Assembly (NCBI RefSeq): GCF_026213295.1
Contig: NC_079415.1
Location: 23,497,610 to 23,561,609, forward strand
DNA length: 64,000 bases
From: Gadus chalcogrammus
Taxonomy: Eukaryota; Chordata; Actinopteri; Gadiformes; Gadidae
Direction of reading: 5' to 3'
The position numbers and the translations under genes are program-made. Position 1 is the first letter of the stretch. The number at the start of each line of letters is the position of its first letter. The notes beneath the pieces are model-generated. The model was given only the letters and a program-made list of their open reading frames with translations. It was not told the origin of the DNA and did no database searches. Positions 37,401 to 46,400 of this stretch are shown here, piece by piece.

Positions 37401-40400
37401 TTATTTTCTACACATTTTTCATTTAGTTTAACAATTAAATTTTGAGATTTTTAATAGTATCTGACATCATATATATCTTAGCATAAAAAATAAAATAAAA
37501 AAGTAAAATCCATTTTATTTTTACAAGGGCAAAGACATCAAATGGGCGAGGGCAAAGACAACAAATGGGCGGGCCCGGCCCAGTCTGGCCCGCCCTTGGC
37601 GCCGGGTCTGAGTAGCAGCAGTACTAGTAGCATTAGTAGTAGTACTAACAGTAGCAGTAGTAGCAGTAGCAGCAGTACCGTCTATGGCCAACATCTGTAT
37701 CCTCTTCGGTCTATTTTGCTAATCTGAGATATCCAAATAGTACCGATAGCAGTGCTGGCAGTAGCAGTAGTAGAAGAAGTAGTAGTAGTAGTAGTAGCAG
37801 CAGTTGTAGCAGTACTGACAGTAGTAGTCGTAGTAGCAGGACTGGCAGTAGTAGCATTAGAAGTAGCACTATCAGCAGTAGTAGTACTAGTAGTAGTAGT
37901 ACTATTACTAGTAGTTCTAGCAGTAGTAGTTCTAGCAGCAGTAGTAGCAGTAGCAGAAGTAGTAGCATCAGTACCGTCTATGGCCACCAGGATGGCAGTC
38001 TGTCCTTTGTTCTCGTGGCTGGACATGGCGGCGTTGATGTCCGCTCCGATGTGGTGGCCGTTCCTCCTCATCCACTCTCTGTTGCCAATCAGCACAGAGT
38101 GCGACCCGCCGCTGCCTGCCAGTAAACGCGTTACAGAACCATTACAGAATGTTAGAACCAGTGCAAACTTTGAACTGTGAACTGCATTTATATCTCACGT
38201 GCGTACATTAAGTGCCAGGACTTACAACATACAATAAGTGTGTACATTAAGTGCCAGGACTTACAACGTACAATAACTGTGTACATTAAATGCCAGGACA
38301 TATACAACATACGGTAACCCTTCCTTTTACAGTCCCCTAATTACTAGGTATTTACCCGGTACATGCATGGTAAATTATAGTGTATTACTGGGTAATTACC
38401 ACTGGTAATAAGAAGGTAAAAACAGAGGTAGTTACCCGGTAAATACATGGTAAATCATAGTGTATTACTGGGTAATTACCACTGGTAATAAGAAGGTAAA
38501 TACAGAGGTAGTTACCCGGTAAATACATGGTAAATCATAGTGTATTACTGGGTAATTACCACTCGTAATAAGAAGGTAAATACAGAGGAATTATCCGGTA
38601 AATTATAGTGTATTACTGTGTAATTACCACTGGTAATAAGAAGGTAAATGCAGAGGAATTACAGCTGATGTACCAAGTAAAACCTCCACTATTACCCATC
38701 AACTCAACTAAGTAGCGTGTAGTTGCAAACTGTTTTAGATTGGTAATAACTCTGATATTGTGTACTTCCTAGGAAATTAGGCAACCAATTCTTAGAAAAA
38801 CCTATTATCCAAGGTTTACGCTGGTAACAGCCCAAATTTAATGATGTACTATCTAGAAATTAGCATAGTACTTTCCAATAAAATACTTTTTCTTAGTTAT
38901 TATTCATAGCTACACCCATTTAGAAAGGGTTTATTCAATTTACCACTATGGAATTACTTACCTGGTAACAACCTCTGCAGGAAGTTTTCCTCTAGTGTCA
39001 TGGTACATCTTCTTAAATACTGGGTACGAAGCCGTTTGTTTCCATGGTATTACCAGGTTCTTACCATATCATTTATAATAGATACATTCCATTGTCCATG
39101 CAGTCAACACAAACTTGTACCATGTACGTTCTGCGACGTTACCAAGTAAAACACGACAATTTACCCAGTAATTAAGCTGAAACTGTACTGTAAAAGGAAG
39201 CCTCGTTTGTTTCCATGGTATTACCAGGTTCTTACCATATAATTTGTAATACATTATTCCCTTTTCCATGCAGTCAACACAAACTTGTACCATGTACGTT
39301 CTGCGACGTTACCAAGTAAAACACACCAATTTACCCAGTAATTAAGCTGAAACTGTACTGTAAAAGGAAGCCTTGTTTGTTTCCATGGTATTACCAGGTT
39401 CTTACCATATAATTTGTAATACATAATTCCCTTTTCCATGCAGTCAACACAAACTTGTACCATGTACGTTCTGCGACGTTACCAAGTAAAACACGACAAT
39501 TTACCCAGTAATTAAGCTGAAACTGTACTGTAAAAGGAAGCCTTGTTTGTTTCCATGGTATTACCAGGTTCTTACCATATTATTTGCAATACATTATTCC
39601 CTTTTCCATGCAGTCAACACAAACTTGTACCATGTACGTTCTGCGACGTTACCAAGTAAAACACACCAATTTACCCAGTAATTAAGCTGAAACTGTACTG
39701 TAAAAGGAAGCCTCGTTTGTTTCCATGGTATTACCAGGTTCTTACCATATAATTTGTAATACATTATTCCCTTTTCCATGCAGTCAACACAAACTTGTAC
39801 CATGTACGTTCTGCGACGTTACCAAGTAAAACACGACAATTTACCCAGTAATTAAGCTGAAACTGTACTGTAAAAGGAAGCCTCGTTTGTTTCCATGGTA
39901 TTACCAGGCTCTTACCATATAAGTTGTAACTGGTTATTCCCTTTTCCATGCAATCAACACAAACCATATATGTTCTGCAACATCGTTCACCAGTAGTTAA
40001 GCACTTTAATTGTTATTATAAAACCCCAAACCACTGTTGATGAAAGACATATTAAAATTAAACAAAATCAAGGGCTTATCTTTCAAACAAATGCATATCT
40101 CACAAACAGGCACTGAACACTGAAGAAATAGGCCAAAAAAAAGAGCCGTCCACATCAACTCAATTTAGATGTTACTGATGGTGTTTTCATAAAACACATG
40201 ACAGTGTTATGGCAAGTGACCACAAGGAAGACTGCTTCAACCTCTACAATTTGAATAAGTGGTGAATGCCATGCAGCAGTCTGCCTATGGGAGCATCTTT
40301 GTGGTCATTCGCAAACCAATGAGTCCACTCGATGAATGAGAGATGACTCTTTAGTGTCTTCTCTGTGAGGTATCCCTGCAGTCTCCAGTTCTGGGATTTG

Positions 40401-43400: not shown

Positions 43401-46400
43401 GTATTACAAATTATATGGTAAGAACCTGGTAATACCATGGAAACAAACGAGGCTTCCTTTTACAGTACAGTTTCAGCTTACTTACTGGGTAAATTGTCGT
43501 GTTTTACTTGGTAACGTCGCAGAACGTACATGGTACAAGTTTGTGTTGACTGCATGGAAAAGGGAATAATGTATTACAAATTATATGGTAAGAACCTGGT
43601 AATACCATGGAAACAAACGAGGCTTCCTTTTACAGTACAGTTTCAGCTTACTTACTGGGTAAATTGTCGTGTTTTACTTGGTAACGTCGCAGAACGTACA
43701 TGGTACAAGTTTGTGTTGACTGCATGGACAATGGAATGTATCTATTATAAATGATATGGTAAGAACCTGGTAATACCATGGAAACAAACGGCTTTGTACC
43801 CAGTATTTAAGAAGATGTACCATGACACTAGAGGAAAACTTCCTGCAGAGGTTGTTACCAGGTAAGTAATTCCATAGTGGTAAACTGAATAAACCCTTTC
43901 TAAATGGGTGTAGCTATGAATAATAACTAAGAAAAAGTATTTTATTGGAAAGTACTATGCTAATTTCTAGATACATCATTCAATTTGGGCTGTTACCAAC
44001 ATAAACCTTGGATAATAGGTGTTTCTAATAATTGGTTGCCTAATTTCCTAGGAAGTACACAATATCGGAGTTATTACCAACCTAAAACAGTTACAAATAC
44101 ACGCTACTTAGTTGAGTTGATGGGTAATAGTGGAGGTTTTACTTGGTACATCAGCTGTAATTCCTCTGTATTTACCTTCTTATTACCAGTGGTAATTACA
44201 CAGTAATACACTATAATTTACCGGATAATTCCTCTGTATTTACCTTCTTATTACGAGTGGTAATTACCCAGTAATACACTATGATTTACCATGTATTTAC
44301 CGGGTAACTACCTCTGTATTTACCTTCTTATTACCAGTGGTAATTACCCAGTAATACACTACGATTTACCATGTATTTACCGGGTAACTACCTCTGTATT
44401 TACCTTCTTATTACCAGTGGTAATTACCCAGTAATACACTATAATTTACCATGTATGTACCGGGTAAATACCTAGTAATTAGGGGACTGTAAAAGGAAGG
44501 GTTACCCAACATACAATAAGCTTGTACATTCAGTGCCAGGACGTACAACATACAATAAGTCCATAAGACGGGTGTTTTAAGTAGTAAGTGAGGAGGGGCG
44601 ACGGGGGGGAAGGGAGGAGGCCAGTGAGCGACTCTGCGGTCCTGACATCGGCAGGGAGCCCGTTCCACCATTGCAGTGCCAAAACAGAGAAAAGTTGTGA
44701 CTTCATTGTTCGACCGCACACACACACACACACACACACACACTGTGGCAACCCCGATCGTCGGCGGCTGAGATTCCCGAAGGAGAAGCACCAAACAGGG
44801 TGTGGGTCAACGGTTTTTATTGCGTATTACCACACATGCAAAAATGGTAACGAAAAAGTTAACTCAGGTTCTTCCTGGTATGGGAAAAAAGGACACCGCT
44901 CCGGGTCTGGTCCTGCTGCGGGGGGCGGCGTCTCGATCCCCTGCGTCTTCGGCTGCTTAGTCCTGGGGAGAGGCGTAATGGCGTTAGCGTGGGTCCGGGT
45001 AATCTCCCCCTACCGCGTCTTTCCAACTCGGCCGCATTCCCCTGACTGCGCGCGCGATCCTTAAGTACCCTCCGCCGTCTCCCTCCGCCGGGTGCTCCGC
45101 ATTTCCTTGATTGCGCGGGTGCGCTCGATGCGCGCTCCCGCGTCGCTGCGCCGAGCGGCACATATCTCCCACGGACTACCCGCCCGCGGAGAGGGCGCTG
45201 GCGGGGCTCGAACTCCTCCGTCGGATCGGGGTTGCCACACACCCCCACCCTCAGCTGCAAGTCGGGGACCCCCCGGCATAGGCCTAGGCAGGCCTATGCC
45301 GGGGGGTGGCCAGGCCTATGCGTCTGCGTTGGCATGTGCGCGTCCGGGCCGGTGGACCACCTGGAAGTGGTAATCCTGCAGGGCCAAGAACCAGCGCGTC
45401 ACCCGGGCGTTGGTATCCTTGGCCGTGGCCATCCACTTCAGGGGGGCGTGGTCTGGCGTGGTCTGGCCACGGTCGAGTAGGCTTTCTCGCTGGCCAGGAG
45501 TTTCCGGCTGATATAGGTCACTGGGTGCTCCTCGCCCGACCGGACCTGGGATAAGACCGCTCCCAGGAATGACTTCACCTGCTTCTTCGTCCTCGGCCGG
45601 GGCCAGGTCCGGATGGTCTGCACCTTCTCCTCTTGAGGTTTCACGCTGCCCCTCCCCACTCGGTAGCCCAGGTAGGACGCCTCTTCGAGGCCCAGGCGGC
45701 ACTTCTTAGGGCTGGCCGTGAGGCCGGCGGCTCGGAGCGCTCCCAGGACGGCACGGAGGTGATGTAGGTGCAGGTCCCAGGTGCTGCTGTGGACGACGAC
45801 GTCGTCGATGTAGGCGGCGGCGTATTCCCTGTGGGCCCGTAGGACCCGGTCCATCATCCGCTGGAAGGTCGCGGGCGCCCCGTGCACCCGGAACGGGAGG
45901 ACCGTGTACTGGTACAGCCCGTCGGGGGTGGCGAATGCTGTCTTCTCCCGGGCCCGCTGGGTGAGAGGGACCTGCCAGTATCCTTTTGTCAGGTCCAGGG
46001 TGGTAATGAACCGGGCCGGCCCCAGCCGCTCTATCAGTTCGTCTATGCGGGGCATGGGGTAGGCGTCGAAGGCCGACACTTCATTCAATTTCCGGAAGTC
46101 ATTGCAGAAGCGGTACGTTCCGTCCGGTTTGGGGACCAGGACCACCGGGCTGGACCATGCGCTGTGGGACTCCTTGATGACCCCCATCTGCAGCATGCTT
46201 ATGACTTCCGCTCGGATGGCGGCCCGCCGTGCCTCCGGAATGCGGTAGGGCCGGAGTCGGACTCGGACTCCCGGTTCCGTCCTGATGACATGGCTGACTG
46301 TCGCGGTCCTCCCGGGCCGCTCCGAGAAGACCTCGAGGTGCTGGAGGACCACTTCCTTCATGTCCTGGGTCTGGCTTGGGCTCAGCTGCTCCCCCACTGG

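Follow-up and report, generated by a model that had tools for sequence, protein, structure and literature searches.

A probable palindromic foldback element with tandem-repeat arms in an ATP7B intron of Gadus chalcogrammus

The window analysed here is a stretch of 64,000 nucleotides of Gadus chalcogrammus (contig NC_079415.1 of GCF_026213295.1, positions 23,497,610 to 23,561,609). It carries a copper-transporting ATPase gene on the minus strand and, within one intron of that gene, a near-perfect palindrome of 6194 bp (window 38313-44506) whose limits are exact. Both inward-read termini are GGTAACCCTTCCTTTTACAG, and CAACATAC stands directly outside each end. The locus thus agrees with the initial annotation, which had reported a 6.2-kb near-perfect palindrome bounded by an exact 8-bp duplication.

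The ATPase gene is ATP7B. Its minus-strand frame at 58.7 kb has Copper-transporting ATPase 2 as best PDB sequence match (E 6e-7), and the frame at 48.5 kb matches the PDB sequences of ATPase 2 with E 6e-23 versus 8e-10 for ATPase 1. The exon at 38.1 kb matches a P-type Cu(+) transporter (E 3e-16), ATPase 2 (5e-14) and ATPase 1 (4e-12) in PDB, so that all three minus-strand frames compared score best with ATP7B-type copper pumps. Frames with ATPase motifs follow in order at 58.7, 48.5, 35.7 and 34.4 kb. Frames and splice signals together place the end of exon 15 at 47965, with exons and introns numbered after human ATP7B. Of the 9849 bp of the intron, the palindrome takes up 6194, and 197 bp separate it from the splice site of exon 16. 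Its earlier assignment to intron 15 of an ATPase gene therefore holds, with ordered exons on both sides. The features of the insertion are as follows.

37976-38115, minus strand: ATP7B exon 16, delimited by frames and splice signals, 197 bp away from the element
38199-38312, resuming at 44507, plus strand: 39-bp minisatellite hosting the insertion
38305-38312, plus strand: target duplication CAACATAC, left copy
44507-44514, plus strand: target duplication CAACATAC, right copy
38313-44506, unstranded: whole putative foldback element, 6194 bp
38313-41130, plus strand: left arm, about 2.82 kb
41362-44506, minus strand: right arm, about 3.15 kb, inverted copy with two extra 170-bp units
38313-38332, plus strand: left terminus GGTAACCCTTCCTTTTACAG
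44487-44506, minus strand: right terminus, exact inverted copy of GGTAACCCTTCCTTTTACAG
38346-38656, plus strand: left-arm 80-bp tandem array, 4.0 copies, GGTAA-rich
44163-44473, minus strand: right-arm 80-bp tandem array (two overlapping repeat-list rows merged)
39033-39964, plus strand: left-arm 170-bp tandem array, 5.5 copies
42519-43790, minus strand: right-arm 170-bp tandem array, 7.5 copies
39965-41130, plus strand: left-arm inner domain, GGTAA-poor (2 in 1166 bp)
41362-42518, minus strand: right-arm inner domain, GGTAA-poor (2 in 1157 bp)
41131-41361, unstranded: spacer between the arms, about 231 bp
42037-42240, plus strand: right-arm exon-like open frame (MEGEIWRY... in gadid gene models)
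40244-40447, minus strand: left-arm copy of the MEGEIWRY... exon-like frame
41321-41404, plus strand: spacer-into-right-arm stretch, weak match to the first 21 residues of Arctogadus model P0001 (17/28 columns)

Inwards of its terminus, each arm has the 80-bp units, about 0.3 kb of further sequence, the 170-bp units and an inner domain of about 1.16 kb, and the two arms meet at a 231-bp spacer. With gaps uncounted, the first 2800 positions of the arm-to-arm alignment, taken as 14 blocks of 200, are 98% identical on average (blocks 95.5%-100%), and identity is 97.0% (2771 of 2858 aligned positions) when the spacer edge is included. Kimura distances are 0.020 for the outer part (769 positions) and 0.027 for the inner part (1149 positions). 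The right arm is longer by a single 340-bp stretch that corresponds to two 170-bp units, giving 7.5 units against 5.5 on the left. The 20-bp terminus, allowing up to three mismatches, occurs in the window at these two sites only (mean of 100 shuffles, 0.02), and none of 81 blastn matches of the element (word 11, E 1e-3) fell elsewhere in the window.

The surroundings of the element preserve its empty site. Taking out the element and one CAACATAC rejoins the 39-bp minisatellite without a break, its units starting at intervals of 39, 39 and 41 bp, and therefore the insertion occurred as one unit, as had been claimed from the duplication. The bare 8-mer match is weaker evidence, because CAACATAC belongs to the minisatellite: it occurs nine times in the window on either strand, four of them in the flanking array with the copies at the element ends included. 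Long palindromes are a known class of assembly or hairpin-read artefact. Here, however, the arms show 2% divergence and a length difference of 340 bp, blastn found no inverted similarity between the 2-kb flanks, and host exons 15 and 16 stand in order on each side, which makes an artefact most improbable.

The element shows the hallmarks of a foldback element: long inverted repeats that contain tandem arrays and enclose a middle domain and, in this one insertion, an 8-bp target-site duplication. It has no long frame of its own, the longest inside being 83 aa, and the foldback-like character proposed earlier is supported. Drosophila FB and sea urchin TU elements also have kilobase arms of tandem units, but their units are short and they belong to other lineages. 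The closest likeness in plan is Tetris of Drosophila virilis, which is described with a flanking domain, a tandem domain of variable copy number, an inner domain, a middle and no ORF, and with 8-9-bp duplications (PMC4079207). Tetris is an insect element with ~220-bp tandem units and arms up to 1,735 bp (PMC4079207), and the likeness does not imply kinship. Galileo likewise has long, internally repetitive inverted repeats, but it belongs to the P superfamily, makes 7-bp duplications and is reported with arms of about 1.26 kb at most (PMC3573991, PMC3688188). Given these two published lengths, the earlier remark that foldback arms are usually far shorter is not supported, though the arms here, at 2.8-3.1 kb, exceed both. 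Classification as a miniature inverted-repeat transposable element was considered and rejected, since such elements are usually <600 bp (PMC3573991) against 6194 bp here.

The arms are rich in one short motif, GGTAA, which also forms the first five bases of the terminus. It occurs 117 times on both strands of the element, compared with a mean of 22.6 and a maximum of 31 in 30 dinucleotide shuffles. The two arms agree, with 25 each in the outer 0.42 kb, 5 each over the following 0.3 kb and 2 each in the inner domains; the 170-bp arrays hold 22 (left) and 30 (right). The terminal 60 bp also align to the 170-bp unit with a score of 43, where the best of 1000 letter shuffles reached 31.5. This two-zone plan would fit repeated recognition modules on the outside and former gene sequence on the inside. 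The inner domain could instead be the captured start of a host gene (a Pack-type capture) and not part of an ancestral transposon, as the drop of GGTAA to background there and the gene models over it in two other fish species might suggest. We regard such a capture as rather doubtful: the inner frame has no above-threshold match in Pfam, NCBIfam or PDB, and none of its eight relatives points to a named host gene.

Relatives of the element, compared at the protein level, include gene models of other gadid fishes. The inner frame has eight, of which four are gene models on contigs of 20-48 Mb (Arctogadus glacialis P0001 and P0002; Boreogadus saida P0005 and P0007) and four lie on contigs <2.3 kb. 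P0001 matches positions 42037-42237 (60/67). In P0005 and P0007, about 30 residues match one strand of the arm and the next part, 42 residues, matches the opposite one; since both strands occur on one transcript, both arm orientations are needed, which would imply that at least two contigs of Boreogadus carry palindromic copies. For the 170-bp unit there are 25 relatives, each on a contig <3.3 kb. Four of these (P0010-P0012 and P0014) carry the junction of the array with its outer flank, and it is the same outer flank as here. An in-frame repeat check of all 33 relative proteins gave a period of 56 residues (168 bp) in P0009 and of 57 residues (171 bp) in P0010, P0011 and P0013; a 171-bp spacing is also present at the outer end of the left array of the element. 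Scans of viral contigs and of genome contigs, collections that are viral or prokaryotic, returned no relatives. One viral-contig match to the 20-mer terminus (L001) is exact over those 20 bases only and was dismissed as chance because no related stretch extends beyond them.

The 170-bp units differ between the arms. Among the anchored units compared (five left, seven right), the innermost are alike (L1 and R1), GT is a variant restricted to left units 2 and 4, and C is one restricted to right units 4, 6 and 7. The peptides NWCV and QLTYW, which the unit variants would encode, are present in relatives. Because the variants differ from arm to arm, each arm seems to have taken up variants of the family and to have changed on its own. 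Such differences, and the fact that each arm by itself looks like one end of an element, would also be expected if two separate 3-kb elements had inserted head to head. Two insertions are nevertheless very unlikely, as the duplication is found at the outer ends only, the inner edges fade into the spacer, and the 20-bp end, allowing up to three mismatches, occurs in the window at the two outer termini only. The two Boreogadus models also require both arm orientations, and the Arctogadus model may share the spacer edge, though this last match is weak.

An 8-bp duplication fits the hAT superfamily, but it is not specific, as Zisupton elements also make 8 bp, and so do P, Merlin and some Mutator elements. 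Mutator elements usually make a 9-bp duplication and use a MULE transposase. The ends GGTAACCC do not seem to fit the terminal pattern ascribed to hAT elements, (C/T)A(A/G)NG. Pfam returned nothing above curated cut-offs for 8 of the 31 listed element frames (best rows E 0.07-0.16), and NCBIfam (three relatives) and PDB gave nothing credible for the frames of the element. Elsewhere in the window, two adjacent long frames of 681 and 195 aa (25691-28431, minus strand) resemble a hAT transposase, with matches to the Pfam hAT dimerisation domain (E 0.011) and BED finger (E 0.065) that lie under curated cut-offs. They are not shown to be the partner of the element, and no element-like end (20-mer, up to three mismatches) lies in the window beyond the two termini of the element itself.

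A candidate family has been described in Atlantic cod. gadMor-hAT-1784 is found at chromosome-inversion breakpoints; it has a palindromic consensus that lacks an ORF and whose inverted repeats, ~600 bp long, consist of 167-169-bp tandem units (PMC12368964). Its copies average 1,334-1,404 bp, whereas those of the sister subfamily gadMor-hAT-8043 average 1,973 and 5,838 bp, the latter figure coming from two TEs (transposable elements) on chromosome 7 (PMC12368964). The hAT classification was reached with RepeatModeler, MCHelper, PASTEC, RepeatClassifier and manual curation, and the terms 'TSD', 'target site' and 'foldback' are absent from the main text (PMC12368964). These subfamilies and our element share a gadid host, multiple copies, a palindromic build, inverted repeats of tandem units and the lack of an ORF, and the 168-bp spacing of P0009 falls within the published range. 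The published account of gadMor-hAT-1784, as far as it goes, describes no 80-bp array or inner domain. Judged by description and not by consensus letters, the element is probably a full-length relative of gadMor-hAT-1784. The initial annotation had called the family undescribed, and this is now doubtful because gadMor-hAT-1784 has a similar palindromic make-up and units of almost equal length.

We conclude that the palindrome is very probably a single non-autonomous foldback DNA transposon, with long terminal inverted repeats, of a multi-copy gadid family. Several observations weigh against this conclusion. The 8-mer that is duplicated also belongs to the flanking minisatellite, the ends and the duplication are known from one insertion alone, and no transposase was found among the frames of the element. 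The Boreogadus palindromes rest on two gene models that may be misbuilt or may be two assemblies of one locus. The unit measures 170 bp here and 171 bp in three relatives versus 167-169 bp as published, and the published inverted repeats (~600 bp) and copies (1,334-1,404 bp) are far shorter than the element (PMC12368964).

The differences in unit and arm length would also suit a separate giant foldback family, unrelated to gadMor-hAT-1784 and similar in unit length by coincidence. The published hAT label is, moreover, not evident in the element ends when these are compared with the terminal pattern ascribed to hAT. On the other side stand the same fish lineage, the palindromic build, the near-equal tandem units, the absence of a long ORF and the 168-bp spacing of P0009, and we treat an unrelated family as a possible, tentative alternative. 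This alternative and the capture of a host gene concern the family and origin of the element and are both compatible with its insertion as a single foldback transposon.

As a single foldback transposon, the element would have been moved in trans, cut and pasted into the ATP7B intron by a transposase encoded elsewhere. This transposase may recognise GGTAA-bearing end modules that are repeated along the arms as candidate binding repeats. For Galileo, binding of the transposase domain to internal tandem repeats as secondary sites has been proven experimentally (PMC3688188). We propose that one end of an ancestral element was duplicated in inverted orientation to give the foldback form, that this end perhaps included the start of a spliced gene, and that the tandem arrays afterwards changed in number independently in each arm.

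The gene-strand RNA of the element, folded alone and without a shuffle control, has a minimum energy of -5175 kcal/mol. In this fold, 2726 pairs join bases >300 nt apart and one helix runs for 253 bp without interruption, so that the pre-mRNA is expected to contain a hairpin: if ATP7B is transcribed, its intron should form a long hairpin. The prediction accords with the initial annotation, according to which an RNA copy would make a kilobase hairpin. The same intron also holds a retroelement frame adjoining the foldback element (45438-47105, minus strand), with an integrase end followed by reverse transcriptase and RNase H, that is probably Ty3/gypsy-like.

The window contains further repeats. 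Two DDE_Tnp_4 transposase fragments and a Myb/SANT-like frame (16696-17181, minus; 55623-56489, plus; 13917-14570, plus) are presumably Harbinger-type. Three reverse transcriptase frames (7131-8678, plus; 49746-51266, minus; 62162-63949, plus) appear LINE-like. The sole Rfam match, a UnaL2 LINE tail (49102-49155, minus), lies outside the element. A 269-bp tandem repeat of 2.8 copies with 96% matches (61369-62120), which directly precedes the reverse transcriptase frame at 62162, possibly represents LINE 5' repeats.

The element could be, in a more far-reaching account that we consider improbable, the full-length source of the repeats driving gadid inversions, with the longest tandem-built foldback arms yet described, a mirrored transcription unit that is spliced, and a transposase from a superfamily not yet recognised, marked by GGTAAC ends. 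The intronic copy would offer a natural 6-kb hairpin in ATP7B for editing and splicing tests. If the element belongs to the gadMor-hAT-1784 family, this copy supplies exact ends, a target duplication, the arm anatomy and candidate transposase-binding repeats, which the published description of the family lacks as far as it goes (PMC12368964). It would then allow classification, a hunt for the active partner and a test of the role of the family in cod inversions. DAIBAM, a relative of Tetris, sits at inversion breakpoints (PMC4079207), and Galileo causes inversions (PMC3573991, PMC3688188). The gadid family would thus provide a vertebrate parallel to Tetris/DAIBAM and Galileo, as tandem-armed elements tied to inversions.

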